Below are positions 7,515 to 63,789 of a stretch of DNA of 64,000 bases, one piece after another. The position numbers and the translations under genes were made by a program. Where the stretch lies: contig NC_008268.1 in the NCBI RefSeq assembly GCF_000014565.1, positions 3,038,001 through 3,102,000 on the forward strand, in the 5' to 3' direction. Positions within the stretch are counted from its first letter, which is position 1; every line of letters begins with the position of its first letter. The notes below the pieces were generated by a model that ran no database searches, was not told where the DNA came from, and saw nothing but the letters and a program-made list of their open reading frames with translations. This DNA is from Rhodococcus jostii RHA1. Lineage in GTDB: Bacteria; Actinomycetota; Actinomycetes; Mycobacteriales; Mycobacteriaceae.

Positions 7515-7528
7515 TTCATCTCCTCAGA

Positions 7529-7654: not shown

Positions 7655-7671
7655 TGTGATCTGTGATCTCA
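7655..7671. promoter_or_regulatory. GntR/FCD-type operator box 2
   Basis: TGTGATC followed by TGTGATCTCA, the same tandem arrangement as at 10188-10204 but with one mismatch in the second half. It lies about 270 bases upstream of the MFS start at 7940. Confidence 0.55.
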
Positions 7672-7939
7672 TCCTATTCTGTGTGACGAGACGCACATCA
7701 CATCGACGTGAAGGTTCGAACCACGATCGCCGGCTCGGACGGTGATCGATCTTCATCGCGTCTCACGGTGCAGATACCGCTGCCCTTCAGTGCATCGGGA
7801 TTCACCAGAGCGCCAGTGCAGGACCGTCGCGCTCGAGGCTCGACTCATCTCTTTTCACACCGACCACGACAGGCACCCCGAACACGTCTTACAGGGGTCC
7901 ACGTCAAGCCAGACCAGAAACGTCAACGAGGAGCTCGAT

Positions 7940-9301: not shown

Positions 9302-9304
9302 CAT

Positions 9305-10093: not shown

Positions 10094-10170
10094 ATGGCCC
10101 TCGCCCTTCGCCCTGATCTCGACGTAGCCCGAACCATCGCTGTCGGGCCTTCGCGCACGATGCGCCGCCG

Positions 10171-10204
10171 ATCACATCATCCGCTTGTGTGATCTGTGAT
10201 CACA
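10171..10204. promoter_or_regulatory. GntR/FCD-type operator box 3, divergent promoter
   Basis: TGTGATC (10188-10194) is followed directly by the perfect palindrome TGTGATCACA (10195-10204); ATCACA at 10171-10176 is a further half-site in the opposite orientation. Placement between the GntR start (10093) and the operon start (10389) fits autoregulation and control of the catabolic operon. Confidence 0.6.
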
Positions 10205-10388
10205 CTTTATCCTCAATGGAGCGGGTATGACCGGCATCACTGTTTTATCCCAGAGAACGACGCGTCCGGACTGCGTGCATCGCACGCAACCACTGCACGG
10301 CAGGTGCGCGCGTCCCGAATCACAACTTGCCACGAACACGCCACCACTCCCCGGCGAGCGACATGGCCCCAGTGAAGGAGATATCGAA

Positions 10389-11783: not shown

Positions 11784-11827
11784 CCTTCCCCACACCAAAC
11801 ACTCGTCAACGATCTAGGAGTCATTTC

Positions 11828-12721
11828 ATGTCCAAGCAACTCAGCGGTGTCCTCACAGCATTGACCACCCCGTTCGACGCCGACGAACTCATCGACACGG
11901 ACAAGCTGAAGCTCGTGGTGGACCGCTCGATCAAGGCAGGCGTCGACGGTGTCGTCGCGGCAGGATCGACCGGTGAGGTCGGGGCGCTGTCGTCGGACGA
12001 GCGCCTGCGTCTCGTCGACACGGTCATCGAGCACACCGACGGCCGGGTTCCCGTCATCGCCCAGACCGGTGCCACGACGACCGCAGAGGCCATCCAGCTC
12101 TCCCGCGCCGCCGAAAAGTCGGGCGCCGACGTGCTCATGCTGATCACACCGTTCTACGAGCCGCTCTCGACCGAAGAGACGGTGGCATACATCAAGGATG
12201 TCGCTTCCGCCGTGGAGCTGCCGGTCATGCTCTACAACATCCCCGCGGTCACGGGTGTGAACCTCGACCCGAGCACTGTTCGCTCCCTGGCCGAAGAGGT
12301 CGACAACATTCGGTACATCAAGGACTCGAGCGCGAACTGGGAACAGGCACTGCAGCTGATCCACCACCACAGCGACGTGATCGGCACCTTCATCGGCTGG
12401 GACTCCTACATCTACAGCGCGCTGGTCGAGGGCGCTGCCGGGGTCATGGCAGGTGCCGCAAACGTCGTTCCGGACGAGATCGTCGCCGTGAACCGGCTCA
12501 TCGGCGAGGGCGACCTGCACGGCGCGCTCGCCAAATGGAAGAACCTGTACCCGGTGATCGACGCGATGATCTCCGTTCCCTTCATCTCCGCCGTCAAAGC
12601 CGGTCTCGCTCTGCAGGGAGAACCGGTAGGAGCGCCCCGCCGGCCCACCGCAGAACTCCCCGCAGAGCAGGTCGAAAAGATCGGACAGGCACTGAAGCGG
12701 CTCGCAGAGGGGACTGCGTAA
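11828..12721 (+). CDS. DapA/NanA-family lyase or deaminase (class I Schiff-base aldolase fold)
   Basis: 297 residues with all hallmarks of the dihydrodipicolinate synthase family: GSTGE (46-50), LYNIP with Tyr136 and the Schiff-base Lys165 in IRYIKDSS. Housekeeping DapA is unlikely because of the operon context, between an FAD enzyme and a Na+/amino-acid symporter. Members of this family in catabolic operons include N-acetylneuraminate lyase, keto-deoxy-sugar-acid dehydratases and the pyrroline-hydroxycarboxylate deaminase of hydroxyproline degradation. The combination here fits the last type as well as any, but that is inference. The start ATG has AGGAG nine bases upstream. Confidence 0.85.
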   Translation: MSKQLSGVLTALTTPFDADELIDTDKLKLVVDRSIKAGVDGVVAAGSTGEVGALSSDERLRLVDTVIEHTDGRVPVIAQTGATTTAEAIQLSRAAEKSGADVLMLITPFYEPLSTEETVAYIKDVASAVELPVMLYNIPAVTGVNLDPSTVRSLAEEVDNIRYIKDSSANWEQALQLIHHHSDVIGTFIGWDSYIYSALVEGAAGVMAGAANVVPDEIVAVNRLIGEGDLHGALAKWKNLYPVIDAMISVPFISAVKAGLALQGEPVGAPRRPTAELPAEQVEKIGQALKRLAEGTA

Positions 12722-12724
12722 ATC

Positions 12725-14212
12725 ATGGCAGGCCTGGACTGGGCCGAGATGCTCACGACCGTGGCGGACGCCATCTGGGGACCGATGGCCTACGTGGTCC
12801 TCGGCCTCGGGGTGGCGTACACCGTCGCCACCAGAGGCATTCAGTTCCGACGCATCCCGGACATGATCCGACAGCTGAAGGAATCCAGCGAAGGCGAAGG
12901 AGGACTGTCCTCCTTCCAGGCGCTTGTCCTTGCGCTCGCCAGCCGTGTGGGTGTCGGGAGCATCGCCGGTGTCGCAACAGCAGTCGGCGGTGGTGGACCG
13001 GGTGCCCTGCTGTGGATGGCCGTGACAGGACTGGTCGGCTGCACCGTCGGGTACGCCGAGGCAACCCTCGCGCAGGTGTTCAAACGTCAGGTCGAGGACG
13101 AGGACCGGAAGAAGGCCAACGAGGATATCGGCGGCATGCCGTACTACATCAAGTACGGACTGAAGCTTCCCAAGGTCGCGGGCCTCGTCGCGTTCCTCGG
13201 GCTGGTCGGCTACGGATTCATGTTCCCCGGATTCCAGGTCAGCACCATTGCCTCGAGTGCGGAGATGGCATTCGGAACACCGACCTGGGTGCCGGCAGTG
13301 CTCATCACCGTGCTGATCGCTCTGGTGATCTTCGGTGGCACTACTCGAATCGTCAAGGTCACGCAGACTCTCGTACCGATTCTCGCAATCGGATACCTGA
13401 CGTTGGCGCTGGCGGTGATCGCGGCGAACATCGAAAATGTCCCGGAAGCGATCACGCTCATCGTGAACTCGGCGTTCGGTATCGACCCTGTGCTGGGCGG
13501 CATCGCGGGCGCTGCAGTTGCATGGGGAGTGCGCCGGGCAGTCTTCGCGTCGGCGAACGGAATCGGTGAGGCGACGTTCGCCGCGGCGGCGGCACGGACG
13601 TCCCACCCCGGCAAGCAGGGTCTCGTCCAGACGTTCAGCATCTACATCGACGTGCTGCTGATCTGCATGGCAACAGGGCTGATGATGGTGGTCTCCGGAC
13701 AGTACAACGTCTCCGATGGTTCGGGTGGTTACCTTGTCCAGAACCTTCCGGGTGTGGAGGCCGGTCCGAACTGGGTCCAGAAGGCCATCGACACGTTGGT
13801 TCCCGGGTGGGGCGCGGCGTTCATCGCAGTAGCCGTGTTCCTGTTCGGCTTCACCTGCCTCATCGTGTACTTCTACGTGGCCAACTCGAACCTGTTGTTC
13901 CTGCTCAACGGGCGGAAGGGGCCGGTATCCAAGCTGGTCCTCAAACTCGGCACGCTCGCGATCGTATTCGTCGGCTCCGTCGTGAACGCAGGACTCGTCT
14001 GGGCGATCGGCGATATCGGGCTCGGGCTCATCGCCTGGGTCAACCTGATGTGCCTGGTACTGCTCTTCCCGCTCGTCTACCGGGTGTACCGCGATTACGA
14101 GCAACAGAAGAAGCGTGGACTCGACCCCGCGTTCGATCCCACAGCGCTCGGCATCGACGGAGCCGAGTTCTGGGAAGCGAACACCGTCACCGGACACAGC
14201 GTCTCCCGGTGA
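12725..14212 (+). CDS. Alanine or glycine : sodium symporter (AGCS family)
   Basis: 495 residues with about ten to eleven membrane helices. Family segments include ALASRVGVGSIAGVATAVGG near the N-terminus, GGMPYYIKYGLK in a loop and RRAVFASANGIGEATFAAAA in the core. AGCS proteins import small neutral amino acids with Na+. The gene begins three bases after the lyase stop, so the two are co-transcribed. In this operon it probably imports the compound oxidised by the FAD enzyme or a related amino acid. One deviation: the family motif commonly reads GNxxGV, whereas here it is SRVGVGSIAGV. Confidence 0.9.
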   Translation: MAGLDWAEMLTTVADAIWGPMAYVVLGLGVAYTVATRGIQFRRIPDMIRQLKESSEGEGGLSSFQALVLALASRVGVGSIAGVATAVGGGGPGALLWMAVTGLVGCTVGYAEATLAQVFKRQVEDEDRKKANEDIGGMPYYIKYGLKLPKVAGLVAFLGLVGYGFMFPGFQVSTIASSAEMAFGTPTWVPAVLITVLIALVIFGGTTRIVKVTQTLVPILAIGYLTLALAVIAANIENVPEAITLIVNSAFGIDPVLGGIAGAAVAWGVRRAVFASANGIGEATFAAAAARTSHPGKQGLVQTFSIYIDVLLICMATGLMMVVSGQYNVSDGSGGYLVQNLPGVEAGPNWVQKAIDTLVPGWGAAFIAVAVFLFGFTCLIVYFYVANSNLLFLLNGRKGPVSKLVLKLGTLAIVFVGSVVNAGLVWAIGDIGLGLIAWVNLMCLVLLFPLVYRVYRDYEQQKKRGLDPAFDPTALGIDGAEFWEANTVTGHSVSR

Positions 14213-14269
14213 GGAGTTTGCCGCAACTGTCCGTCACGCCATAGCGGATCATCCAGCGCAACCCGTTGC

Positions 14270-14294
14270 GGGCCGGCGCTTCTCGCGCCGGCCC
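14270..14294 (+). terminator. Intercistronic hairpin between symporter and aldehyde dehydrogenase
   Basis: GGGCCGGCGC (14270-14279) pairs perfectly with GCGCCGGCCC (14285-14294) around a five-base loop. With no T-run and the ribosome site of the next gene 20 bases downstream, it may act as an attenuator or mRNA stabiliser rather than a full stop. Confidence 0.55.
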
Positions 14295-14328
14295 ACATCA
14301 TCCCAGTCGATCTTGGAGGTTCTTCCAG

Positions 14329-15840
14329 ATGCCCAACACCACCCTCACCGGACATGTCGCCGTCAGCCGAGCACCCGGAGGTTCCTTGAACGTCCGGGAC
14401 GACCTGCCTCCGACCCAGCACTACATCGCAGGAGCGTTCGACGCCGTCGACAACTCCGGTCCCCGCACCGACGTCGTCGACCCGAGTACCGAACAGGTCA
14501 TCGCCGCGGTACCCCAGGGGACCGCGGCCGATGTCGACCGAGCGGTCGCAGCCGCGGTCGCGGCCAAGAACGACTGGGCCAGACTCGTTCCGAAGGAACG
14601 CTCCCTTCTGCTTCACCGCATCGCGGACAGAATCGAACAGAACTCCGAGGTACTGGCGCGGCTCGAATCCGCCAACACCGGAAAACCTTTCGAAGTCTCG
14701 AACGACGACGTCGCAGGCACTGTGGACACCTTCCGGTTCATGGCGGGCGCACTGCGTGCGACCACGTCGATGGCCGCCGGAGACTACGCCGAGAACCACC
14801 TGTCGGTCATCCTGCGTGAGCCGCTCGGTGTGGTCGGCGTCGTCACCCCGTGGAACTATCCGCTGCTGATGGCGGCGTGGAAGATCGCGCCGATCCTCGC
14901 AGCCGGAAACACGGTGGTGATCAAGCCGTCCGAGCAGACCCCCTTGACGACACTGAAATTCGCCGAACTCGTCGGTGACCTGCTTCCGGTGGGCGTGTTC
15001 AATGTGGTGTCCGGACTCGGGCCGACCGTGGGAGCGCGGCTGACCGAGCATCCCGACGTCGACATGCTCGCCCTGACCGGATCCGTGGGCAGCGGCAAAG
15101 CCGTCGCACGTGGGGCCGCAGACACGCTCAAGCGCGTCCATCTCGAACTGGGCGGCAAAGCACCAGTGGTGATCTTCGCCGACGCCGATCTCGACGACGC
15201 CGCGGTGTCATTGCGTGCGGCGAGCTACTGGAACTCGGGCCAGGAATGTGGCGCAGCATGCCGGATTCTCGTGCACGAGTCCGTCGCCGAGGAGTTCACC
15301 CGGAAGCTGGTCGAACAGGTGAGCACGTTCGTGGTCGGCGAGCCAGGAGCAGGTGACACCGTGGAAATCGGCCCTCTGGTGTCGAAGGCGCACTTCGAGC
15401 GGGTCACCGCATATCTGGAACGTGCGGCGCAACAGGGAATCACCGCCGCAATCGGTGGATCTGCACTGGACGGACCGGGGTACTTCGTCGCACCGACCGT
15501 GCTCGTCGGCGTACCCGACGGCGCCGAATGCGCTCGCGAGGAGATCTTCGGCCCGGTGGTCACCGTCGAGACGTTCACCGACGAGGACGAGGCGACCCGC
15601 CGCGCGAACGATGTTCCGTTCGGCCTCTCGGCATCGGTCTGGACCGAGAACGCCCGCCGCAGCCACGAAGTTGCCGCGCGGATCGACGCCGGAACGGTGT
15701 GGGTCAACTCCCACCTCGTGCTGGCCAACGAAGTTCCGTGGGGTGGGTTCAAGGGATCCGGCTACGGACGCGACCTGTCGATCTATGCCCTCGACGACTA
15801 CTCACGCACCAAGCACGTCATGCACAACCACGGTCGATAG
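14329..15840 (+). CDS. Aldehyde dehydrogenase, gamma-aminobutyraldehyde dehydrogenase-like
   Basis: 503 residues from ATG 14329 behind TTGGAGG. NAD(P)-dependent aldehyde dehydrogenase features are complete: VVTPWNYPLLMAAWK (substrate entry and Asn), GSVGSG (cofactor loop), Glu273 in HLELGGKAP and catalytic Cys307 in NSGQECGAA. GQ-x-C-x-AA rather than GQCC resembles the PatD/YdcW gamma-aminobutyraldehyde dehydrogenases. That suggests an omega-amino or semialdehyde product arising from the FAD enzyme and lyase encoded upstream. It is the last gene of the operon, followed by a strong terminator at 15889. Confidence 0.85.
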   Translation: MPNTTLTGHVAVSRAPGGSLNVRDDLPPTQHYIAGAFDAVDNSGPRTDVVDPSTEQVIAAVPQGTAADVDRAVAAAVAAKNDWARLVPKERSLLLHRIADRIEQNSEVLARLESANTGKPFEVSNDDVAGTVDTFRFMAGALRATTSMAAGDYAENHLSVILREPLGVVGVVTPWNYPLLMAAWKIAPILAAGNTVVIKPSEQTPLTTLKFAELVGDLLPVGVFNVVSGLGPTVGARLTEHPDVDMLALTGSVGSGKAVARGAADTLKRVHLELGGKAPVVIFADADLDDAAVSLRAASYWNSGQECGAACRILVHESVAEEFTRKLVEQVSTFVVGEPGAGDTVEIGPLVSKAHFERVTAYLERAAQQGITAAIGGSALDGPGYFVAPTVLVGVPDGAECAREEIFGPVVTVETFTDEDEATRRANDVPFGLSASVWTENARRSHEVAARIDAGTVWVNSHLVLANEVPWGGFKGSGYGRDLSIYALDDYSRTKHVMHNHGR

Positions 15841-50442: not shown

Positions 50443-51666
50443 CTAGATCCCGACCTTCGACAGGATCGCCGTCATCGCCGCCTGGACGCCGGTGGACAGG
50501 GTGGGCTCCGCGACGGGGGCGAAGAACGGTGAGTGGTTCACCGGCACAGGCTTTCCACTCTCGAGGGTTTCCGCGGTGTGGCCACCGAACATCCAGAACA
50601 CCGACGGAACGCCGATCACCTCGGCGAGCAGGCCGAAGTCCTCCGAGCCCATCATCGGAGTCGACGGCCTGACGTTGTTCTCGCCCAGCACCTTCTGCAG
50701 CTCGGCGACGAGTTCGGCGGTGGCGTCGGGATCGTTGTAGTTGCGCGGGAACGTGTACAGCTCCTCGATCAGCGGCTTCGGCGCCCCGGACGCGTCGGCC
50801 TCGGCGTAGATGATGCGGCGCAGCGCGGCATTGACTTGCTCACGCACCTCGGGGTCGAGGGTGCGCACGTTGATCGTGAACTCGGCCCGGTCCGCGATGA
50901 TGTTCTCCTTCAGCCCCGCATGGAACGTGGCGACCGTGACGACCGCCGGCTTCATGGGGTGAACTTCGCGGGACACGATGGTCTGGATGCGGTTGATCAT
51001 GTTGACGCCCTGGATGATCGGGTCGATCGAATCCTGGGGCTGGGAGCCGTGTGAGCCCTGGCCGTAGACGGTGACCTTCAGTGAATCGGCCATGGCCATC
51101 GCGTCGCCACTCGTGACGTGCACGGTGCCGGCCAGCATCGGCCCGACGTGCTGCCCGAAGACGATCTCCGGCTTGGGTGCCCGGTCCCACAGGCCATCCT
51201 CGACCATGGCCTTCGCTCCGGCGGCCGTTTCCTCGCCCGGTTGGAAGAGGAACACGATCGTTCCGGCCCACGCCTCGCGCGCGCCTGCGAGCAGTTCGGC
51301 GACGGTGAGCAGGGTGGCGACGTGTGTGTCGTGGCCGCAGCCGTGCATCACGGGCACCTCGGTGCCGTCGTCGAGGTGTCCGGTGGCGGCGCTGGCGTAG
51401 TCGACGCCGGTGTCTTCCGCGATCGGCAGCCCATCGGAATCGGCGCGGAAGGCCACCGTGGGGCCCTCGCCGTTGGTCAGGACACCGACCACTCCGGTGC
51501 CGCCGCAGACGAACGTGTCGATCCCGAGGGCGACGAGGGAACTCTGGATCAACTCCGCGGTCTTGTGTTCCTGCATGGACAGTTCCGGGTTCGCATGCAG
51601 GTGGTAGTAGAGGTCGTGCATCTTCGCCCGCAGCTCGTCGGTGAGCGCGATCGGGAGGTCGGTCAT
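50443..51666 (-). CDS. M20-family amidohydrolase/peptidase, in glycine-riboswitch operon
   Basis: 407 residues from ATG 51666. Metal-site elements of M20D enzymes (hippurate hydrolase, IAA-amino-acid hydrolase, N-acyl amino acid amidohydrolase) are present: AFRADSDGLPI, MHGCGHDTHVATLL, FQPGEETAAGAKAM and MMGSEDFGLLA. The enzyme would hydrolyse an N-acyl or peptide bond, releasing an amino acid. It is the last gene of the minus-strand operon beginning at 53212, whose leader has a tandem glycine riboswitch. It may therefore release or clear glycine-containing compounds such as N-acyl-glycine (inference). The ribosome site is weak (AAAGAAG). Confidence 0.85.
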   Translation of the reverse strand: MTDLPIALTDELRAKMHDLYYHLHANPELSMQEHKTAELIQSSLVALGIDTFVCGGTGVVGVLTNGEGPTVAFRADSDGLPIAEDTGVDYASAATGHLDDGTEVPVMHGCGHDTHVATLLTVAELLAGAREAWAGTIVFLFQPGEETAAGAKAMVEDGLWDRAPKPEIVFGQHVGPMLAGTVHVTSGDAMAMADSLKVTVYGQGSHGSQPQDSIDPIIQGVNMINRIQTIVSREVHPMKPAVVTVATFHAGLKENIIADRAEFTINVRTLDPEVREQVNAALRRIIYAEADASGAPKPLIEELYTFPRNYNDPDATAELVAELQKVLGENNVRPSTPMMGSEDFGLLAEVIGVPSVFWMFGGHTAETLESGKPVPVNHSPFFAPVAEPTLSTGVQAAMTAILSKVGI

Positions 51667-51717
51667 GGAGTCTTCTTTCGAATCATGTGAAGGTGAGATG
51701 TCTCCGCGCATCGATTC

Positions 51718-52454
51718 TTACTCGATGGTCGCGAGCTCGGCCGGGCTCTGGTCGTTCTTGTTCCGCAGGAACCAGGCGAGGACCGCCGTCACGATCACCG
51801 GATGGCGGTGGACGACAGCGCGAGGCTCGGCATCGCCGGAACCACCACGAACGTGATGACCGCGGCCACCAGCAGCGCGACCACCGTGGCCCGGGGCTGC
51901 TTCATCGACACGATCGCCTGGACGAGGACCGCCCCCAGGACCGAGGGAAGGATGTAGGAACGGGTGACGGTCACGATGTCGGTGGGAATCACGCTGATCA
52001 GCCAGGTGCCGAGCAGCCCCACGAACACGGCCAGGGACACGAGGTGCACCATCGCGGCGCCGCAGATCGCCAGGACCGCAGCCAGTTCGGCCCGCTTGGT
52101 TCCCGGTTTGGCTCCGATGTTCGTCTGCGCGATGAGCGCGGCAGGCAACAGCTTGTTCGCGATGTTGCCGATCATGAACGCCTGGTACATCGCGGCCGGA
52201 CCGAGGATGGGGAAATAGGTCAGCGGTTCGACCAGCCAGATGATGAAGAATGTCCCGGCCACCGCGGCGAACGCGGTCCACAACTGGCCTCCGGTGACGT
52301 CCACCTCACCCGAGAACACCAGGTACAGGGGCGCACCGATCGACAGAAGCAGCCCCACGATCATCGTGATCCGACCCCAGCGGGACGTCGTCTTGTCGAA
52401 CTCGGCGAGTGCACGCGCACCGGTGGACACCGTTACGGCTTCGTCGGTAGTCAT
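51718..52454 (-). pseudogene. Small membrane protein partnering DUF5058, frameshifted near its C-terminus
   Basis: From ATG 52454 (AAAGGAC upstream), a Lys-rich cytoplasmic start precedes about six helices, including MIVGLLLSIGAPLYLVF, PAAMYQAFMIGNIANKLLPA and VVALLVAAVITFVVV. As written the frame stops at 51795 after SLALSSTAIR. In the next frame the sequence PVIVTAVLAWFLRNKNDQSP continues, giving a final helix and tail to a stop at 51718. One missing G/C around 51,799 accounts for this. A sequencing error seems likely, but a true truncation losing the last helix is possible. It lies between the DUF5058-like and M20 genes under one glycine riboswitch. Confidence 0.65.
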
Positions 52455-52483
52455 CGAAAAGTCCTTTCCGTGCGAGTCGTGAA

Positions 52484-53212
52484 TCAGGAAGTGACCAGGT
52501 AGGTAACGGTGAGGGCGGCGAGGATCGAAATGCCCAGCCCCCATTCACGGAGCCAGCCCTTGCCGAACGTCCGGGCCACGAAGAGGCAGATCCCCATCGC
52601 AACCGCGGAGGCGGCGAACGCGACGATGTGATAGCTGGACTTCGTCAGTTCCTGGAAGCCCAGCGACGCGAACGCGCCGATCAGGGCGGCAGACGGGACG
52701 ACGGCCATCAACGCCGGATTCACGGTGCGGATCTTCGCGTCGCCCCGCTTGAGCAGCGGAGTGAGGACGAGCGCGGACAGCATCCACATCACACCGCCGA
52801 TACTCATCGCGAAGAAGGCGACCACGAACACATTCTGGGTGTAGGTGTCGGCACCGAGTTTCGCGCCCATGGAGTCGGCGGCGATGCTGGCCGCGGACAC
52901 GTCGTACGCGGCGGAACCGATCAGGCCGATGCGGGCCAGGACGGCGGGCGTCCCGAAGAGGGCGAGCAGGGCGATCGCCACGAGGCAGACCGCCAGGGAC
53001 GGTCCGATCGCCGAGACGGCGCCGGAGCGGAACGACACTTTCATGTCTTCCGGCGACATGTCCGCGACGGGTGCCACCTTGCGGACCGCGGTCATGTAGA
53101 TCGCCGACTGCACGACGATGACGACGAAGATGCCGGCAACGGCCACCCAGAGAACAGGCGAGTTGGCGACAGCCATGATGTCCGTGGATGTCCCACTAGC
53201 AGTCACATTCAT
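52484..53212 (-). CDS. DUF5058-like membrane protein, candidate glycine-responsive transporter subunit
   Basis: 242 residues from ATG 53212 (GGGAG four bases upstream). About six helices: SPVLWVAVAGIFVVIVVQSA, AIGPSLAVCLVAIALLALFG, VFVVAFFAMSIGGVMWMLSA, ALMAVVPSAALIGAFASLGF, IVAFAASAVAMGICLFVA and a last one ending TYLVTS. A polar segment with YDVSAASIAADSMG lies between helices 2 and 3. Assignment to DUF5058 is from memory. The transcript leader has a tandem glycine riboswitch, so expression should follow cellular glycine. With the small membrane partner and M20 hydrolase downstream, transport of glycine or a glycyl compound is the leading inference. Confidence 0.7.
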   Translation of the reverse strand: MNVTASGTSTDIMAVANSPVLWVAVAGIFVVIVVQSAIYMTAVRKVAPVADMSPEDMKVSFRSGAVSAIGPSLAVCLVAIALLALFGTPAVLARIGLIGSAAYDVSAASIAADSMGAKLGADTYTQNVFVVAFFAMSIGGVMWMLSALVLTPLLKRGDAKIRTVNPALMAVVPSAALIGAFASLGFQELTKSSYHIVAFAASAVAMGICLFVARTFGKGWLREWGLGISILAALTVTYLVTS

Positions 53213-53247
53213 GGATCTCCCAGGGAGCGTGAGTAACCGGCGAACCG

Positions 53248-53261
53248 ATCGCTCGAGCGAT
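53248..53261 (-). promoter_or_regulatory. Palindrome between riboswitch and DUF5058-like start
   Basis: ATCGCTCGAGCGAT is a perfect 14-base palindrome 36 bases upstream of the start codon. It may form part of the riboswitch expression platform, or be a protein site. Confidence 0.4.
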
Positions 53262-53298
53262 GTGAGGGTGATCCGGTGGATCGCCTCGGCTGACACCC

Positions 53299-53495
53299 GC
53301 TCTGTTCCGTAACCTGAGAGTTTGGAGACACACTCGTGGGAGTGGTCATCGTGCCCCGTCGGTGAACGTGCCGTTACAGCCGACACGCTGCTCTCCAGAG
53401 TTCCCGACCCTGACTGTCCTGGTGCCTGAGAGTTTGTGGGTACTTGCTCCTTCGGCGTCCGGGACTCGGTCCCGGAACTCTCCAGCCAGGTTCAT
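53299..53495 (-). promoter_or_regulatory. Tandem glycine riboswitch upstream of DUF5058-like operon
   Basis: Read on the minus strand, two aptamers follow one another. The first (about 53492-53405) has CTGGCTGGAGAG, GCCGAAGGAGCAA and AACTCTCAGGCACCAGGACAG. The second (about 53403-53299) has CTCTGGAGAG, a variable arm and CCAAACTCTCAGG with GTTACGGAACAGAGC. GGAGAG, GAAGGRGCAA and AACTCTCAGG with a trailing GGACAG/GAACAGAG are the known glycine aptamer core elements. The linker of a few bases is typical for tandem glycine riboswitches, usually ON switches for glycine use or export. Confidence 0.85.
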
Positions 53496-53643
53496 AGGGA
53501 GAAACCACCGTGATGGTTCCGAATCGAACTGACTCGGGACGTACTGTTCCGCAGACGTATTACGAAGGCATGACTTCGCCGTTCCGGCGTGTTAACTCAC
53601 ACTCCTGGGCGGAAATCGCCAGTGCGCGTTCGCATGCCGAACA

Positions 53644-53695
53644 CCCCATGTGAGTGGCAAAGCGTGCGCCAGCACCCTTTGCCACTCACATGGGG
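53644..53695 (-). terminator. Perfect 19-bp hairpin after lpd
   Basis: CCCCATGTGAGTGGCAAAG (53644-53662) is the exact complement of 53677-53695, with an inner GTGC/GCAC stem and a four-base loop. It ends two bases before the lpd stop codon (53697). The region 53496-53643 between it and the riboswitch holds the promoter of the DUF5058-like operon, no gene. Confidence 0.85.
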
Positions 53696-53696
53696 G

Positions 53697-55070
53697 TCAG
53701 CCGTGGACGTGGAGAGGCTTGCCGGCCACTGCCATCAGTGCCTCACCGAGCGCCTCGCCCTGGGTGGGGTGGGCGTGCACGAACTTCGCCGCCTGCGCGG
53801 CATCGACCTCGAAGTTGTAGAGCAGCTGCGCCTCACCGATCAGCTCCCCGACGCGGTCGCCGACCATGTGCACGCCGACGACGACCCCGGTCGGCGCCAC
53901 CACGAGTTTGACCGCTCCCGACGTCTTGAGGATCTGGCTCCTGCCGTTGCCGGCGAGGTCGTAGGTGACGGTCTCGACGTTCTCGCCGAACTTCTCCCGG
54001 GCGGCGGTCTCGGTCAACCCGACCGACGCGACCTCGGGGTGGGAGTAGGTGACCCGCGGGATCCCGGTCTCGTCGACGACGTCCGGACGGAGCCCGGCGA
54101 TCTCCTCCGCCACGAAGATCCCCTGCTGGAAACCGCGGTGGGCCAGCTGGAGCCCGGGGACGATGTCGCCGACCGCGAAGACGTTCGGGACCGTGGTGCG
54201 CAGTCGATCACTGGTCACCACGAAGCCCTTGTCGAGCATCACTCCGGTCTCCTCGTACCCCATCGACGCGGTGTTGGGTCCGCGCCCCACTGCGACCAGC
54301 ACGACGTCGGCGTCGAGCACGTCGCCGGAGTCGAGGGTGACGGACACCGCATCCTCGTCTTGCGTCACCTCCGTCACCCGCACACCTGTCTTCGCGGCGA
54401 TCTTGCGACGACGGAATGCCCGCTCGAGGTACTTGGAGGTCGTTTCGTCCTCGTTCGGCACCAGCCGCGGCATCGCCTCGACGATCGTCACCGACGCACC
54501 GAACGACGCCCAGACACTGGCGAATTCGACGCCGATGACGCCGCCGCCCAGGATGATCGCTTTCTTCGGGACGGACGGCAACACGAGCGCCTGTTCGCTG
54601 GTGACGATCCGGCCGCCGATGCTGATGCCGGGCAGCGTCTTCGGCGACGACCCCGTCGCCAGGACGACGGCGGCGCCCGTGATCAGCTCGTCGTCGACCT
54701 CCACTCCGTTGGGTCCGACCAACCGTCCGCGGCCGTTGACGACGGTGATGCCGTACGAGTCGACGAGGCCCTGCAATCCTTTGTGCAGTCGGGTGACGAT
54801 GGTGTTCTGGTAGCTCAGGACCTTCTCGAGGTCGACACCGTCGAACGTGACGTCGATACCGAACTGCGAGGCGGTGCGGGCACTGTCGGCGACCTCGGCG
54901 GAGTGCAGCAGCGCCTTCGTCGGAATGCATCCCTGATGCAGGCACGTGCCGCCGAGTTCGTTCTCCTCGACGAGGATGACCGAACGGCCCAGTTCGGCCG
55001 AGCGGATGGCGGCCGCGTAGCCGCCGGAACCGCCGCCGAGGATGACGACATCTGCTGATCGGTGGGACAT
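53697..55070 (-). CDS. lpdA: Dihydrolipoyl dehydrogenase (L-protein of the glycine cleavage system)
   Basis: 457 residues. FAD motif VVILGGGSGGYAAAIRSAEL, redox disulfide Cys43/Cys48 in GGTCLHQGCIPTKALLHSAE, NAD motif AIILGGGVIGVEFASVWASFG, FAVGDIVPGLQLAHRGFQQG and the C-terminal His-Glu dyad in VHAHPTQGEALGEAL. The enzyme reoxidises dihydrolipoyl groups with NAD+. It lies directly downstream of lipA (34 bases) and divergent from gcvP, so it probably serves as the L-protein of the local glycine cleavage complex, as well as possibly other lipoyl complexes. Confidence 0.92.
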   Translation of the reverse strand: MSHRSADVVILGGGSGGYAAAIRSAELGRSVILVEENELGGTCLHQGCIPTKALLHSAEVADSARTASQFGIDVTFDGVDLEKVLSYQNTIVTRLHKGLQGLVDSYGITVVNGRGRLVGPNGVEVDDELITGAAVVLATGSSPKTLPGISIGGRIVTSEQALVLPSVPKKAIILGGGVIGVEFASVWASFGASVTIVEAMPRLVPNEDETTSKYLERAFRRRKIAAKTGVRVTEVTQDEDAVSVTLDSGDVLDADVVLVAVGRGPNTASMGYEETGVMLDKGFVVTSDRLRTTVPNVFAVGDIVPGLQLAHRGFQQGIFVAEEIAGLRPDVVDETGIPRVTYSHPEVASVGLTETAAREKFGENVETVTYDLAGNGRSQILKTSGAVKLVVAPTGVVVGVHMVGDRVGELIGEAQLLYNFEVDAAQAAKFVHAHPTQGEALGEALMAVAGKPLHVHG

Positions 55071-55104: not shown

Positions 55105-56034
55105 TCAGTGAACTGCGGTCGCGGCGACGGCCTCCGCGTGGAGGCGGCCGGCCCGATAGGAGGAGCGCACGAGCGGACCGGACAGGACGCCGAGGAAGCC
55201 GATCTCGCGGGCGATCCCGTCGAGCATGACGAACTCGTCCGGTTTCGCCCACCGCGCCACCGGATGGTGCCGGGCGGACGGCCGCAGATACTGGGTGATC
55301 GTGATCAACTGGCAACCGGCGGTATGCAGATCCCGGAGGGCCTGAATCACCTCGTCCGCGGTCTCCCCCATCCCGAGGATGAGGTTCGACTTGGTGATCA
55401 GGCCGTCCTCCCGGGCCCGGGTGATCACCTCGAGGGAACGCTCGTACGTGAAGGCAGGGCGGATACGACGGAATATCCGGGGAACAGTCTCCACGTTGTG
55501 CGCAAGCACTTCCGGACGGGTGTCGAACACCTCGCGTAGTTGCGCGGCGTCGGCGTTGAAATCGGGGATCAGCAGTTCGACGCCGGTGCCCGGGCACAGT
55601 TCGTGAATCTGCCGCACCGTCTCCGCGTACAGCCAGGCGCCGCCGTCCGGCAGATCGTCGCGGGCAACCCCGGTGACGGTGGCGTACCGAAGGCCCATGG
55701 TCTGCACCGACTCCGCGACCCGTCTGGGCTCTCCCCGGTCGAGTGCGGCGGGCCGGCCGGTGTCGATCTGGCAGAAGTCGCACCGCCGGGTGCACTGGCT
55801 TCCGCCGATGAGGAACGTCGCCTCACGGTCCTCCCAGCATTCGAAGATGTTGGGACATCCCGCTTCCTGGCACACGGTGTGCAGGTTCTCGCGTTCGACG
55901 AGAGCGGCGAGGTCCCGGTATTCGGGGCCTGTCCGCATCTGCACCTTCATCCACGACGGTTTGCGTTCGACCGGAGTCTTGGCGTTGCGGACTTCGAGGC
56001 GGAGCAGTCGGCGGCCGTCAGGCTGTGCAGTCAT
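55105..56034 (-). CDS. lipA: Lipoyl synthase
   Basis: 309 residues from ATG 56034 (AGGAG seven bases upstream). The N-terminal auxiliary cluster Cys55, Cys60, Cys66 ([12 protein letters not shown]) and the radical-SAM motif Cys81, Cys85, Cys88 (CTRRCDFC) are complete; the C-terminal RSSYRAG supplies the Ser ligand of the auxiliary cluster. The enzyme inserts two sulfurs into octanoyl groups to make lipoyl cofactor, as needed on GcvH. No lipB is present in the window. It forms an operon with lpdA and is divergent from gcvP. A UUCG hairpin precedes its ribosome site. Confidence 0.95.
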
Positions 56035-56067: not shown

Positions 56068-56324
56068 GGTATGCGGCGTCGGGCCCGCGCGGTGGACAGC
56101 GCGGCACCAGGGAAGGGTGATCGGGGAGAGCGAGCACACATCGACAACCGTTGGGGCTGCGGGCATCTGGGCTCTGATCGCCCGGCGTGTGCGGTCACGT
56201 CCGAGCGAAGATGCATCGAGGATGCCAAACGACGAGGACTCTTGGCAACACCGTCGGTCCGAGGAGACAAACCCGCGGCGTCTGTGTACTGTTTGGCCAA
56301 CCACAACTGAAGACGCCGTTGACG

Positions 56325-56516
56325 CGCAGCGGGAGAACCTCCGTTTCGGAGGCGCCGTAGGAGCAACTTCCTCCCCGGGAATCTCTCAGGCCCCAGTACC
56401 GCAGCGCAGAGGCAACTCTGGAGAAAGTATCGGCCGTACGGCCGGAACTTACCGAAGGTGAAGAGCACACCGCAGTGGCGGTGCGCCCAAACTCTCAGGT
56501 TTCAGGACAGAGCGGG
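56325..56516 (+). promoter_or_regulatory. Tandem glycine riboswitch upstream of gcvP
   Basis: The first aptamer (about 56325-56408) shows GCAGCGGGAGAACCTC, GCCGTAGGAGCAACTTC and AATCTCTCAGG with GTACCGCAGCGC. The second (about 56410-56514) shows AACTCTGGAGAAAG, a long arm, ACCGAAGGTGAAGAGC and CCAAACTCTCAGGTTTCAGG with ACAGAGCG. These match the glycine aptamer core in tandem. It is expected to raise expression of the glycine cleavage operon when glycine is high. Confidence 0.9.
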
Positions 56517-56549
56517 GAGGTGCCCCTTGTCGATGTCCGGTGCGGTCCG

Positions 56550-56569
56550 GACTCAACGAAACCGGAGTC
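56550..56569 (+). promoter_or_regulatory. Possible ribosome-site-sequestering stem before gcvP
   Basis: GACTC (56550-56554) can pair with GAGTC (56565-56569), covering the GGAG ribosome site of gcvP (56564-56567). Upstream GGGG/CCCC and CCGG repeats could form competing stems. A plausible translational expression platform for the riboswitch. Confidence 0.4.
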
Positions 56570-56574
56570 ACCTC

Positions 56575-59487
56575 GTGCCAGCAGAACCCCGCACCGCCAT
56601 CCGCGGCGTGCCCCTCACCAGCGACTTTCCGTCCCGCCACATCGGTCCTGATGCCGCCGCGTCACGGCGGATGCTCGACGCCCTCGGTTACGACAGTCTC
56701 GCGAACCTGATCGACAGCGCGGTGCCGGACCAGATCCGCAGCTCACAGCCCTTGAATCTGCCCGCGGCGAGGTCCGAGCAGCAGGTTCTCGCCGATCTGC
56801 GGGCGCTGTCGGAGCGCAACGAGACCCGCGTCCAGATGATCGGCCTCGGGTACTCCGACACCATCACTCCCGCGGTGTTGCGACGGAACATGCTCGAGTC
56901 CCCCGCCTGGTACACGGCCTACACCCCGTACCAACCGGAGATCTCCCAGGGCAGGCTGGAGGCGCTGCTGACGTTCCAGACCGTCATCGAGGATCTGACC
57001 GCCCTTCCCCTGGCCGGCGCGTCGCTGCTCGACGAGGCGACCGCCGTGATGGAGGCGGTACTGCTGATGCGGCGCGCGAACAAGTCGAAGTCCGCCACCA
57101 ACCGCGTCGTCCTCGACGCGGACTGCCTGCCACAGACACTGGCCGTCGTCCGGGGACGGGCGAAAGCAGTGGGCATCGAGGTGGTGGTCGCGGAACTGTC
57201 CGGGGAACTGCCCGACGGTGACATGTTCGGGGTGGTCTTCCAGGCGCCCGGTGCGAGCGGCGCGGTGCGCGACCTGGCTCCGATGATCGCCGCGGCGAAG
57301 GCGCGCGGCGCCCTGACCACCGTCGCGGCGGACCTGCTGTCGCTGACGATTCTGACACCGCCCGGCGAGCAGGGCGCCGACATCGCCGTCGGGTCGGCGC
57401 AGCGATTCGGTGTGCCCCTGTTCTTCGGCGGACCGCACGCCGGCTACATGGCCGTGCGCAGCGGGCTCGAGCGCATGCTGCCCGGCCGTCTCGTCGGAGT
57501 GTCCGTCGACGTCGACGGGAAGACCGCCTACCGGCTGGCTCTGCAGACCCGCGAACAGCACATCCGGCGCGACAAGGCGACCAGCAACATCTGCACGGCG
57601 CAGGCGCTGCTCGCGAACGTCGCCGCGATGTACGCCGCCTACCACGGTCCGGAGGGGTTGCGCGCCATCGCGAATCGGGTGCACACCCACGCGACGACCA
57701 TCGCAGGAAGCCTGCGCGCCGCCGGTCACACGATCGTGCACGACAGCTTCTTCGACACGGTTCTCGTGCGGGTCCCGGCGGGTGCCGGGGCGATCGTGGA
57801 GTCGGCCGATCGGGACGGCATCAACCTCCGTCTCGTCGACTCCGATCACGTCGCGATCGCCTGCGACGAGTGCACCACCGACGACATCGTCCGGCGGGTG
57901 GTCGCCGTGTTCGGTGCGCAGCCGACGACCGTCGCGGTGCCCGAACTGCCGTCGGCACTCGCCAGGACGTCGAACTACTTGCAGCACCCCGTGTTCCACG
58001 ATCACCGCTCCGAAACCGCGATGCTCCGCTTCCTGCGCACGCTGTCGGACAAGGACCTCGCGCTCGACCGCACCATGATCCCGCTCGGATCGTGCACGAT
58101 GAAATTGAACTCCGCCGTCGAGATGGAACCGATCAGCTGGCCCGGATTCGCGTCCATCCACCCGTACGCCCCGGTCGCGCAGACGGCGGGCTACCTCGAA
58201 CTCGTCGCCGACCTGGAACGCTGGCTCGGCGAGATCACCGGCTACGATCGGGTGTCGTTGCAGCCCAATGCCGGATCCCAGGGCGAGCTGGCCGGCCTGC
58301 TCGCGATCCACGGCTATCACGAATCCCGCGGCGACTTCGAACGCAACGTCTGCCTCATCCCCCAGTCCGCGCACGGCACCAACGCCGCATCCGCGGTTCT
58401 CGCGGGCATGAAGGTCGTCGTCGTCGCGACCGCGGAGAACGGCAACATCGACGTGGGCGACCTGCGCGCGAAGATCGCGGCGCACGAGGGCGCGATCGCC
58501 GCGATCATGTTGACCTACCCGTCCACTCACGGCGTGTACGAGAACGACGTGCGGACGGTCTGCGATCTGGTGCACGAGGCCGGCGGGCAGGTGTACGTCG
58601 ACGGCGCGAACCTCAATGCGTTGGTCGGCCTCGCACAGCCAGGCAAGTTCGGCGGCGACGTCTCACACCTGAACCTGCACAAGACGTTCTGCATCCCACA
58701 CGGCGGCGGCGGTCCCGGTGTCGGGCCTGTCGCGGTGCGCAAGCATCTGGCGCCGTTCCTGCCCGGTAACCCGTTGGGCGGCGACGACCTCGGCACCCCG
58801 GTGTCGGCGGCCAACTACGGATCGGCCGGCATCCTGCCCATCACGTGGGCGTACATCGCGCTGATGGGTCCGGACGGGCTGACGAGCGCCACCGAAACCG
58901 CGGTGCTCGCAGCCAATTACGTCGCCCAGTCACTGGATCGGCATTTCCCGGTCCTCTACACCGGCCCGTCCGGTCTGGTGGCACACGAGTGCATCCTCGA
59001 CCTCCGGCACGTCACCAAGGCGACCGGCGTCACCGCCGAGGATGTCGCGAAGCGGTTGATCGACTACGGCTTCCACGCGCCCACCCTGTCGTTCCCTGTC
59101 AACGGCACCCTGATGGTCGAACCGACCGAGTCCGAGGACCTGGCCGAACTCGACCGCTTCATCGAGGCGATGGTGTCCATCCGCCGCGAGATCGACCTGG
59201 TCGGCGACGGCGTGTGGCCGCTCGAGCGCAGCCCGCTGCGTCAGGCCCCGCACACCGCCGAACAGGTGACCGCGGACGAATGGGATCTGCCCTACCCGCG
59301 CCACCTCGCCGCCTACCCCGTCGCATCGCTTCGCGCCGCCAAATACTGGCCCCCGGTGCGTCGCATCGACGGCGTCCACGGCGACCGCAACCTCGTCTGC
59401 TCGTGCCCGGCACCCGAGGCCTTCGAGAACACCACCGACATCGACACTTCGGCCATCGCCGAGACCCCCGAGGAGGCCTTCGCATGA
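56575..59487 (+). CDS. gcvP: Glycine dehydrogenase (decarboxylating), P-protein
   Basis: 970 residues from GTG 56575 with GGAG seven bases upstream; a longer in-frame start at 56458 lies in the riboswitch and is rejected. This is the fused alpha-beta form. [20 protein letters not shown] is the typical N-terminus; [15 protein letters not shown] lies in the second half. The PLP Lys703 is in [21 protein letters not shown]-protein decarboxylates glycine and passes the aminomethyl group to GcvH. The stop overlaps the gcvT ATG (ATGA), so the operon is translationally coupled. Confidence 0.96.
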
Positions 59488-60599
59488 CCCTCACCACGAC
59501 GCCCGCGTCCCCGCTGCTCGGCGAGCACGGCGCACTGGGGGCCCATTTCACCGACTTCGCGGGCTGGCAGATGCCGCTGAAGTACGACAGCGAACTCGCC
59601 GAGCACCACGCCGTCCGCAAGACCGCCGGACTGTTCGACCTCTCACACATGGGCGAGATCGCGGTCACCGGCCCTGAATCCGGAGCGGTCCTGGATTACG
59701 CTCTGGCCGGCGAACTCTCGAAGATCGGCGTCGGCAGGGCCAAGTACTCCCTCTTGTGCAATGCGGGCGGCGGAGTCATCGACGATCTGGTCGTCTACCG
59801 TCTCGCCAACGAGCATTTCCTCGTCGTGGCCAACGCGGCCAACGCCCCGACGGTGCACCGCGAACTGGCGGCACGCGTCGAGGGCTTCTCCGCCAGGGTC
59901 GACGACCAATCCTCGGAGACCGCGCTGATCGCGGTGCAGGGACCGGCCGCGCAGGACGTCGTGCAGTCCCTCGTTCCCGCCGAGCAGGTCGAGACGGTGG
60001 CGGAGTTGAAGTACTACGCGGTCACGCGCGCGGTGGTCGCCGGCATCGACGTCCTCCTCGCCCGCACCGGATACACCGGGGAGGACGGGTTCGAGCTGTA
60101 CGTGCCGAACGAACTGTCCGTGCAGTTGTGGCGCGCACTGCTCGACGCCACCACCGCCCGCGGCGGCGTCCCCGCCGGCCTCGCGTGCCGCGACACCCTC
60201 CGCCTCGAGGCCGGAATGGCCCTGTACGGCCACGAACTGACCCTCGACACGAATCCGTACGAAGCCGGGCTCGGCAAGGTGGTCCGGCTGAACAAGGACT
60301 TCGTCGGCCGCGATGCGCTGCAGACGTTGTCGGATCAGGCCCCGCAGCGGGTGCTCGTCGGCCTCGCCGGAGGCGGGCGCCGGGCCGCCCGCGCCGAGTA
60401 CACCGTGTTGGACGCGGCCGGTGAGTCGGCGGTCGGCACCATCACGTCCGGGGCGTTGTCTCCGACACTCGGGCATCCGATCGCGCTCGCCTTCGTGGAC
60501 GTCGCGTTCCGCGAACCGGGCACCGAACTGACGGTCGACATCCGCGGCAAGAAGGAACCGTTCGTGGTCACCCCATCGCCGTTCTACCGCCGCTCCTGA
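59484..60599 (+). CDS. gcvT: Aminomethyltransferase, T-protein of glycine cleavage
   Basis: 371 residues, ATG overlapping the gcvP stop. Family landmarks are [50 protein letters not shown] (folate-binding region with Glu) and [21 protein letters not shown]-terminal [20 protein letters not shown] closes the OB-like domain. It transfers the methylene group from aminomethyl-GcvH to tetrahydrofolate, releasing ammonia. It sits between gcvP and gcvH with a 38-base gap before the latter. Confidence 0.95.
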
Positions 60600-60637: not shown

Positions 60638-61042
60638 ATGTCTTCGCACGCCTTCCCCGACGACCGCAGCTACACCGACGACCACGAGTGGGTCCTGATC
60701 GAGCCGGGCGCCGCCCTCCCCGACGAACCGGTCCGCGTCGGCATCACGTCCGTCGCCGTCAACTCGCTCGGCGAGCTGGTCTTCGTCGACCTGCCGGAGG
60801 TCGGCGCGACCATCGTCGCCGGCGAATCGTGCGGCGAGGTCGAGTCCACGAAGACCGTGTCCGAGCTGTACCCGCCGGTGAGCGGCCGGGTCACCCTGAT
60901 CAACACCGCCGCCGTCGACGACCCCGGACTGGTCACCTCCGACCCCTACGGGGAGGGCTGGCTGTTCGCCGTCCAGCCGTCCGCCGCCGGCGAGCTGCTC
61001 ACCGCGGCCGAGTATGCCGAGAAGAACGGGGTGCAGGCATGA
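60638..61042 (+). CDS. gcvH: Glycine cleavage system H-protein
   Basis: 134 residues. [11 protein letters not shown] at the start and the lipoylation hairpin [19 protein letters not shown] with Lys72 as the lipoyl site are canonical, as is the [13 protein letters not shown] end. It carries the aminomethyl group between P-, T- and L-proteins. Lipoylation probably depends on the LipA encoded across the divergent promoter. A CCGAAAGG ribosome site lies ahead of ATG 60638. Its stop overlaps glyA (ATGA). Confidence 0.95.
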
Positions 61043-62307
61043 GTGTCCTGAACCGCGACCTCGCGGATTTCGACCCGGACGTCGCCGCACTGATCGGCAA
61101 GGAGCTGGAGCGCCAGCGCACCGGCCTCGAGATGATCGCGTCGGAGAACCACGCCCCGCTTTCGGTGATGCAGGCGCAGGGTTCCGTGCTGACCAACAAA
61201 TACGCCGAGGGCTACCCCGGGCGGCGCTACTACGGCGGCTGCGAGCACGTCGACACGATCGAGCAGCTCGCCATCGATCGCGTCAAGGCGCTGTTCGCCG
61301 CCGAATACGCCAACGTGCAACCGCATTCCGGCGCCACCGCGAACGCGTCGGTGATGCACGCGCTGATCGAGCCGGGCGACACGATCCTCGGAATGTCCCT
61401 CGCCGACGGCGGCCACCTCACGCACGGCATGCGCCTCAACTTCTCCGGCAAGCTCTACAACGTCGCCGCCTACGGGGTGTCCGAACAGGACTACCTCATC
61501 GACATGGACGAGGTGGCGAAGGCAGCACGCGAGCACCGGCCGCAGCTGATCATCGCCGGCTGGTCGGCCTACCCCCGGCACCTGGACTTCGCCCGCTTCC
61601 GGGAAATCGCCGACGAGGTCGGCGCGTACCTGATGGTCGACATGGCCCACTTCGCGGGTCTGGTCGCCACCGGATTCCACCCGTCTCCCGTCCCGCACGC
61701 ACACGTCGTCACGTCGACGACGCACAAGACCCTCGGCGGACCCCGCGGCGGCATCATCCTGACGGGCGACGCCGCCATCGCGAAGAAGATCAACTCCGCG
61801 GTGTTCCCCGGCCAGCAGGGCGGCCCACTGGAACACGTGATCGCGGGCAAGGCAACGGCATTCAAGATGGCGGCCGAACCCGAATTCGCGGAGCGTCAGG
61901 AACGCTGCCTGGACGGCGCGAAGGTCCTCGCCGAACGGCTCAGCCGACCCGACGTCAAGGAAGCCGGAATCAGCGTCCTCACCGGCGGCACGGACGTGCA
62001 CCTCGTCCTCGTCGACCTGCGGGATGCCGCCATCGACGGGCAGCAGGCCGAGGACCGCCTCGACGCAATCGGAATCACCGTCAACCGCAACGCCGTCCCG
62101 TTCGATCCACGGCCACCGATGGTGACGTCCGGTCTGCGCATCGGCACCCCGGCACTCGCCGCCCGCGGCTTCGGCCGGGACGACTTCGCGACCGTCGCCG
62201 ACCTGATCGCCCAGGCCCTCGTCGCGCCCGCCGACGCGGACACGTCCGGGTTGGCCGCCCAGGTCCGGGCGCTCGCGGACAAGTACCCCCTCTATCCGGG
62301 GCTGTAA
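61039..62307 (+). CDS. glyA: Serine hydroxymethyltransferase
   Basis: 422 residues, coupled to gcvH by ATGA overlap. Clear landmarks: [20 protein letters not shown], the substrate loop [33 protein letters not shown] and the PLP site [15 protein letters not shown] with Lys230. It joins methylene-THF from the cleavage reaction to a second glycine to give serine. In this operon it likely acts in glycine disposal, in addition to any housekeeping glyA elsewhere in the genome. Confidence 0.95.
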
Positions 62308-62406: not shown

Positions 62407-63789
62407 GTGACGATCAGTGTGTTCGACCTGTTCTCGGTCGGTATCGGACCCTCGAGTTCGCATACCGTCGGGCCGATGCGGGCGGCGGGCACGTTCGTCG
62501 ACGACCTCGACGCACTCGGCCTCCTCGGGGACGTCGCCGGTGTCCGTGTCGATCTGTACGGATCGCTCGCGGCCACCGGCGCCGGCCACGGCACCATGTC
62601 GGCGATCCTCCTCGGCCTCGAGGGGTATCGGCCCGACACCATCGCCACGGAGGAGATGGAGAGGCGACTCGACGAGGTGCGGGCGAGTCGGCGGATCCGC
62701 CTCGGCGGGACGGTCGACATCCCGCTCGCCGAGGACGAGATGGTGCTGCACCCGTTGACGGTCCTGGATTTTCACCCCAACGGCATGACCCTCACCGCCA
62801 CCGGCGTCACCGGTCGCCAACTGCACGCGCAGACGTACTTCTCGATCGGCGGCGGATTCGTCGTCACCGGCGCCGAACCGGAACTGCCCGTCGACGCAGG
62901 CACGAATTCGCTGTCGTTCGGGTCGGCGCGCGAACTGCTCGACCTCAGCGAGCACTACGGGCTCACGATCAGTGAGATCATGCTCGAGCACGAAAGCGCC
63001 CTCCGGCCCGAGCCGGAGGTCCGGGCGCGGCTCCTGCACATCCGGGACGTGATGGTCGAGTGTCAGCGACGCGGAATCAGCCGGGACGGGTACCTGCCCG
63101 GCAGTCTGCGGGTACGCCGCCGCGCCCGCGGCTGGTACGAGCGGCTGAACGTCGAGGATCCCGATCGTGATCCCGCGTTCGCCGAGGACTGGGTGAACCT
63201 GGTGGCCCTCGCCGTCAACGAGGAGAACGCGTCCGGCGGACGGATCGTCACCGCCCCCACCAACGGGGCGGCCGGCATCATCCCGGCGGTCCTGCACTAC
63301 GCGCTGCACTACACCCCCGCCGGAAAGGCGGACCCGGACGGCACGGCGGTGCGATTCCTGTTGACGGCAGGCGCAATCGGATCCCTGTACAAGGAACGGG
63401 CCTCGATCTCCGGGGCCGAGGTGGGCTGCCAGGGCGAGGTGGGTTCCGCGGCGTCCATGGCCGCCGCCGGCCTCGCCGAGATCCTCGGTGGCAGCCCGGA
63501 GCAGGTGGAGAATTCGGCGGAGATCGCGATGGAACACAGTCTCGGTCTGACGTGTGATCCCATCGGGGGCCTGGTGCAGATCCCGTGCATCGAACGCAAC
63601 GCCATCTCGGCGGGCAAGGCGATCAACGCCGCCCGGATGGCTCTGCGCGGCGACGGCACCCACCGGGTCAGTTTGGATCAGGTCATCGAGACGATGCGGG
63701 CCACCGGCGCCGACATGAGCTCGAAGTACAAGGAGACCTCCACCGGTGGTCTCGCCGTGAACGTGTCGGTGAACCTCGTCGAATGCTGA
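62407..63789 (+). CDS. sdaA: L-serine ammonia-lyase (single-chain, iron-sulfur)
   Basis: 460 residues from GTG 62407 (GGAAGGA upstream). The fused SdaAB-type chain has [20 protein letters not shown] at the N-terminus and [15 protein letters not shown]; Cys341 (GCQGEVG), Cys383 (LTCDPIGG) and Cys394 (IPCIERN) are the probable [4Fe-4S] ligands. It converts serine to pyruvate and ammonia. As the last gene of the riboswitch-controlled operon it completes glycine to serine to pyruvate. The 99-base gap after glyA has no terminator. Confidence 0.93.

Follow-up and report, generated by a model that had tools for sequence, protein, structure and literature searches.

A tandem glycine riboswitch precedes a DUF5058 membrane-protein pair and an M20D amidohydrolase, a candidate glycine-supply cassette in Rhodococcus jostii RHA1

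Why would a tandem glycine riboswitch stand in front of two small membrane proteins and an amidohydrolase? This arrangement is found in Rhodococcus jostii RHA1, within a stretch of 64,000 nucleotides (contig NC_008268.1, positions 3,038,001 to 3,102,000; hereafter the window, on which coordinates are counted). The riboswitch leader is followed by the genes for a DUF5058 membrane protein, a partner membrane protein and an M20D-type hydrolase, together called the cassette here (Table 1). We propose, with confidence that is about evenly balanced, that the cassette is an accessory glycine-supply module, by which a glycine conjugate or peptide would be taken up, cleaved and fed to glycine catabolism.

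An earlier note, made from the letters of the window alone, had read a tandem glycine aptamer on the minus strand directly upstream of these genes. The covariance model of the glycine riboswitch, RF00504, which scores sequence and structure, confirmed the element and its position: both aptamers lie above the curated Rfam cut-off of 32 bits (72.6 and 40.1 bits). Four Rhodococcus loci, that of the window among them, share the leader with its two aptamers, and in all four the three genes come next. The presumed expression platform lies between aptamer 2 and the start of DUF5058; a hairpin with a T run behind it was not seen there by eye, and the leader folded no better than shuffled sequence (z-scores of -0.83 and 0.55). 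The cassette switch is probably of the ON type, by analogy, because the switches of glycine cleavage (gcv) operons are so described in the passages of PMC11477304 used here; the leader folds did not decide.

The six-helix protein of the earlier note shows six hydrophobic segments in its hydropathy profile, and the DUF5058 profile PF16481 matched it from end to end (1-222 of 222 positions; 200.6 bits versus a cut-off of 28.2). The partner matched nothing in Pfam or NCBIfam at E <= 0.1, and P0121, a full-length relative, gave no Pfam match at E <= 0.001; by hydropathy the full-length relative is strongly hydrophobic as well. Known transporter families (Na_Ala_symp, AbgT, AA_permease, Gly_transporter) found no Pfam match in either protein at E <= 0.1, DUF5058 giving only PF16481. 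The DUF5058 and partner genes are 29 bases apart, and 128 bases lie between the partner and the M20 gene. The most conserved stretch of DUF5058 spans about residues 86-100, where G87, P89, R94, G99 and S100 are invariant in ten diverse members; a structure model places it in two short helices (88-97 and 101-114) between longer ones. It is a plausible substrate site, although confidence in the model is moderate and, of its five versions, four fall below 60 in predicted local distance difference test (pLDDT).

The two membrane proteins keep constant company. When named genome contigs were scanned, 165 relatives were confirmed; the 80 best of them, nearly all actinobacterial, were taken as loci. 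The partner directly follows DUF5058 in 79 of the 80, and in the exception the contig stops 79 bases on; an M20 gene lies within 3 kb downstream in 70, and two of the ten loci without it have at most 400 bases of contig left. Among 149 genomes that belong to the same family as an Arthrobacter genome, 48 encode DUF5058 and the same 48 encode the partner, neither ever occurring alone. On six haloarchaeal plasmids DUF5058, partner and amidohydrolase stand in the same order in every case (partner by profile in all six). That is, the linkage of the three genes recurs in bacteria and archaea, and, as far as genome comparison goes, the invariable co-occurrence supports a two-subunit assembly of DUF5058 and partner. 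Two records of the family are mentioned for themselves: a contig labelled Vibrio cholerae strain 35D, which may hold foreign sequence, has a DUF5058-partner-M20-amidase locus that shares 60% identity with the actinobacterial query (L059), and on a Vibrio diabolicus plasmid DUF5058 is broken by an in-frame stop, with transposase genes on both sides (L014 4977-5705).

The third gene, described as M20D-like in the earlier note, scores far above the TIGR01891 cut-off (Table 1). Its nearest solved relative is 6slf (280 bits, residues 10-400), and the motifs CGHDxH, PGEE, QHV and NH, which we take to be the metal and catalytic motifs, are aligned in register with it. Assignment as a CpsA or DoeB2 equivalog was rejected, the scores being 279.9 and 224.2 bits versus cut-offs of 500 and 550.

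Within its own genus the cassette is sparse, DUF5058 being encoded in 4 of 28 genomes (the window's included). Four others (G001, G005, G019, G024) contain a second gcv cluster and lack DUF5058. In G024 and G001 the flanks join, beside this cluster, where the window holds the cassette; in G005 what is left beside it is a 42-base remnant of the partner gene together with the latter part of the M20 gene, and G019 has a different segment of about 7 kb at the site. The cassette and its riboswitch are therefore either there or missing as one piece, apart from the decayed copy of G005. The G019 segment holds genes whose protein starts are closely similar to those of another cluster of the window (L105 9963-17238); at 5754-15840, this cluster encodes an amine oxidase (PF01593), an aldehyde dehydrogenase (PF00171) and a member of the sodium:alanine symporter family (PF01235), besides a permease-like gene.

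Upstream of the cassette, lpd and lipA lie on the same strand, followed by a divergent tandem riboswitch with gcvP, gcvT, gcvH, glyA and sdaA, an island that the earlier note left out of its finding. The true gcvP start is probably downstream of the aptamers. By its gene content, the island covers the whole way from glycine to one-carbon units, serine and pyruvate. A further full gcvP, which has a tandem riboswitch of its own, lies about 2.1 Mb away in the same genome (G000:C1:962017-963640), and the window island therefore looks accessory. At least two full gcvP genes (over 550 bits) were found in 7 of the 28 genomes of the genus, 4 of which lack DUF5058.

Does the glycine link extend beyond this genus? 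We compared aptamer and DUF5058 positions genome-wide in 84 genomes or records (44 in one set and 40 of 42 in another; G486 and G488 were left out because no DUF5058 position is given for either). An aptamer pair on the same strand, about 0.35 kb or less upstream of the DUF5058 domain, was found in 14 of them (G000, G006, G023, G453, G316, G484, G490, G506, G537, G560, G594, G609, G620, G623), a count that may miss weak aptamers because stricter Infernal filters were used for the 42-genome set and the plasmid records. For G537 the first aptamer only is listed, and for G506 the second was taken from a separate search. By rough arithmetic (few sites per several million bases), the number expected by chance is far below one. 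A tree built from 55 DUF5058 domains requires five or more changes of riboswitch state and has the carriers in three places (Rhodococcus, G316/L098 and one Arthrobacter-type group); since the loci were partly chosen for having a riboswitch, the tree gives no frequencies.

Glycine cleavage genes recur in the neighbourhood. In G316/L098, which has a tandem riboswitch upstream and an M20-like hydrolase, gcvT-gcvH-gcvP lie about 3 kb or less from the far side of the cassette. The cassette stands beside gcvP-gcvT-gcvH-glyA-sdaA in L120 and L121 and beside gcvP-gcvT-gcvH and a PF03458 'Gly_transporter' gene in L123; gcvT-gcvP are about 5 kb away in L124, and L081 has glycine cleavage genes close by. 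PF03458 genes were also near the cassette in L012 and L096. On the haloarchaeal plasmids gcvP is within 10 kb in five of six (W04 has none), and of the stretches seen, four contain lpd, three lipA and three glyA; RF00504 was not found in the three haloarchaeal records searched (W04-W06), the other three not being searched. Of the 44 genomes or records of the first set, seven have gcvP at most 10 kb from DUF5058 (G000, G006, G023, G453, G316, W05, W06). This recurrent neighbourhood supports a glycine role, and the glycine link is wider than one riboswitch.

Three single loci are recorded in addition. In L120 (2319-4226) a gene for an amino acid permease (PF00324) has a glycine aptamer in front of it; next come a second aptamer and the gcv operon, and after these an Lrp-type gene, which is divergent, and the DUF5058 cassette. 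In L118 (11015-15270) a DUF5058 cassette that has tandem glycine aptamers is immediately preceded by genes resembling 5-oxoprolinase subunits (the one scanned has a carboxyltransferase domain, PF02682). On a Paenarthrobacter plasmid a sub-threshold glycine aptamer (28.9 bits) is found on the opposite strand just upstream of DUF5058 (L009 4683-4772; W02:C1:6393-6482, minus).

Several points weigh against the glycine-supply reading; the likelihoods we attach to the explanations they raise overlap and are not exclusive shares. The gcv linkage could also mean uptake or export of free glycine. If the pair carried free glycine (or small neutral amino acids), with the M20 enzyme only clearing peptides and the riboswitch tuning glycine import, the linkage to gcv islands and 'Gly_transporter' genes would fit, and AGCS symporters are often associated with glycine riboswitches according to the relevant passages of PMC11477304. 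However, the hydrolase usually follows the pair, an amidase gene is near six of eight loci without it, and in at least one genome (L120) a riboswitch-preceded amino acid permease is present beside the cassette, so that we regard this explanation as unlikely. Export of glycine or a glycine-derived compound, switched on at toxic glycine like the detoxifying gcv operon, would agree with the description of gcv-operon riboswitches as ON switches in those passages and with the directly upstream riboswitch in 14 of 84 cases. But an attached hydrolase is of no obvious use to an exporter, and the full glycine-to-pyruvate route in the island suggests use, not disposal; we consider export very unlikely.

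Other points concern the breadth of substrates. No riboswitch was found directly upstream of DUF5058 in 70 of the 84 genomes or records, and most loci examined closely show no glycine cleavage gene within reach. Around the cassette in 90 loci (single-linkage BLAST clusters from crude calling of open reading frames, with identities from few scanned representatives), Lrp/AsnC-type regulators occur in 51, amidase-type genes in 37 and hydantoinase/carbamoylase-type M20 genes in 13, and these other hydrolases point to substrates beyond glycine conjugates. Where M20 is lacking and at least 2 kb of contig is available (eight loci), six have a divergent amidase-type gene upstream, L039 has none and L034 has no upstream sequence. 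Amide hydrolysis is therefore what these loci have in common, and in the gcv-linked branches glycine is the suggested product. The missing riboswitches, the other amide hydrolases and the regulators together mean that the pair may be used for several amino acids in amide linkage. A transporter of general range, for amino acids in N-acyl, N-carbamoyl or peptide form, with glycine as only one of the products and a riboswitch that some lineages recruited to signal glycine or one-carbon status, is accordingly possible though doubtful, since the repeated coupling to gcv genes, archaea included, is specific. The earlier note had predicted a two-subunit transporter for glycine or glycyl compounds: co-occurrence in 48 of 149 genomes speaks for the two subunits and the gcv neighbours for the glycine role, whereas the points just listed speak against a purely glycine-specific reading. 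The prediction is thus partly supported, and it stood up to the two refuting conditions of the note that the analysis covered, RF00504 giving significant hits and the three genes being linked in bacteria as well as archaea.

The window copy itself may be impaired. Partner relatives at 97-99% identity have 245 residues, versus 219 here, and near the 3' end of the gene the window lacks one base compared with three relatives, so that the last 26 residues are lost. The earlier note, right in its coordinates, overlooked this frameshift. The difference may be a mutation or an assembly error. That the cassette is dead in this genome, a remnant through its frameshifted partner, is a question separate from the role of the intact module. 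A decayed cassette in a close relative (L104) would fit such a fate; DUF5058, M20 and riboswitch are nevertheless intact and conserved, the single-base difference may lie in the assembly, and P0121, at 99% identity, is full length. We find a dead cassette rather doubtful. Structure prediction weighs against our reading as well, the DUF5058 model having no convincing fold match and the models being moderate or poor (pLDDT 74.7 and 60.6).

For the glycine-supply module we envisage the following course. DUF5058 and partner (about 240 residues each) would form one heteromeric membrane importer, perhaps of 12 helices, which brings in an amide-bound glycine compound, either a hippurate-type N-acylglycine or a glycyl peptide. 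The M20D hydrolase would cut the amide in the cytoplasm and release glycine, which GcvP, GcvT and GcvH with Lpd and LipA could turn into CO2, ammonia and methylenetetrahydrofolate. GlyA would join the latter to a second glycine to give serine, and SdaA would lead on to pyruvate. The tandem riboswitch would sense intracellular glycine and most likely switch the cassette on together with the gcv operon, the product thereby inducing its own supply route.

Table 1. Features of the window around the cassette (positions in the window)
Feature	Position	Strand	Evidence
M20D amidohydrolase/aminoacylase, 407 residues	50443-51666	minus	PF01546, PF07687; TIGR01891 266.5 bits, cut-off 153.75
Partner membrane protein, 219 residues	51795-52454	minus	no Pfam/NCBIfam family; 893 homologues at E <= 0.001
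DUF5058 membrane protein, 242 residues, six hydrophobic segments	52484-53212	minus	PF16481, 200.6 bits; hydropathy
Leader, aptamer 2 to DUF5058 start; presumed expression platform	53213-53299	minus	read by eye
Glycine riboswitch aptamer 2	53300-53400	minus	RF00504, 40.1 bits; whole-genome search 53292-53408, 44.9 bits
Glycine riboswitch aptamer 1	53404-53495	minus	RF00504, 72.6 bits, E 3.2e-13, full model 1-94; kept in 4 Rhodococcus loci
Whole cassette, stretch missing at the same site in two Rhodococcus relatives	50447-53698		L103, L106 align to 53699 and resume at 50446
lpd, dihydrolipoyl dehydrogenase	53697-55070	minus	TIGR01350 461 bits, cut-off 408.8
lipA, lipoyl synthase (open reading frame runs to 56304)	55105-56034	minus	TIGR00510 322 bits, cut-off 310.25
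Tandem glycine aptamers of the glycine cleavage operon	56320-56520	plus	56320-56411 60.9 bits; 56408-56520 43.7 bits (whole-genome search)
gcvP open reading frame	56458-59487	plus	TIGR00461 1297.5 bits for 56635-59487; PF02347 564.6 bits
gcvT	59484-60599	plus	TIGR00528 344.8 bits, cut-off 235.85
gcvH	60638-61042	plus	44% identity to annotated archaeal gcvH of L012; no NCBIfam match at the strict limit used for island genes
glyA, serine hydroxymethyltransferase	61039-62307	plus	NF000586 598 bits, cut-off 335
sdaA, L-serine ammonia-lyase	62407-63789	plus	TIGR00720 653.7 bits, cut-off 345.1

More broadly, and tentatively, we suggest that DUF5058 and partner are a new two-protein transporter family of bacteria and archaea for amide-bound amino acids. 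In gcv-linked branches glycine conjugates would enter through the pair, which together with M20 would open an uncharacterised 'conjugate to glycine to pyruvate' route whose glycine induces the genes that release it. For DUF5058, a domain of unknown function, this provides a definite partner, a likely role and a class of substrates that can be tested. If true, the set of glycine-riboswitch genes would be extended to a hydrolase-coupled membrane pair, suggesting how soil actinobacteria and haloarchaea use glycine conjugates (hippurate, glycyl peptides).

How does the cassette compare with known systems? The targets of glycine riboswitches named in passages of PMC12452182, PMC3766115 and PMC11477304 are gcv, glyA, serine dehydratase, grd and known transporters, whereas here the target is a DUF5058/partner/M20 cassette. 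Such a cassette is not mentioned in the passages of these papers on glycine riboswitch regulons, with supplements outside this scope; 'DUF' is absent from PMC12452182, and no mention of DUF5058 or PF16481 was found in the searched open-access literature. With the tandem RF00504 elements on gcv operons and on glycine or amino acid transporters the cassette shares the RNA class, the tandem layout and a glycine-related target, and another tandem copy precedes gcvP in the window.

The coupling of membrane protein and hydrolase has parallels too. AbgT with AbgA/AbgB combines p-aminobenzoyl-glutamate uptake and M20D hydrolysis, that is, there too a transporter gene goes with an M20D amidohydrolase, which cleaves an amide to release an amino acid. 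AbgT, however, is one large unrelated transporter, and Pfam finds no AbgT domain in DUF5058 or partner. In E. coli, yjiH-yjiG-iadA comprises two small membrane proteins with an isoaspartyl dipeptidase of another hydrolase family; the likeness, two small membrane proteins beside a peptidase or amidohydrolase, is an analogy only, as the cassette membrane proteins give no Pfam family but DUF5058. The N-alpha-acyl-glutamine aminoacylase AgaA (6slf) is the closest solved M20 relative by sequence, with the motifs aligned; that entry is named for acyl-glutamine, whereas the glycine-amide specificity of the window enzyme is a prediction. In C. difficile, according to a passage of PMC11477304, the lysine-riboswitch gene YfcC, a putative amino acid antiporter, forms an apparent operon with an M20D-family amidohydrolase, an arrangement that differs from the cassette in its riboswitch and in its transporter family. 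In this comparison the RNA class and the enzyme family are known, and the membrane pair is what had been undescribed.

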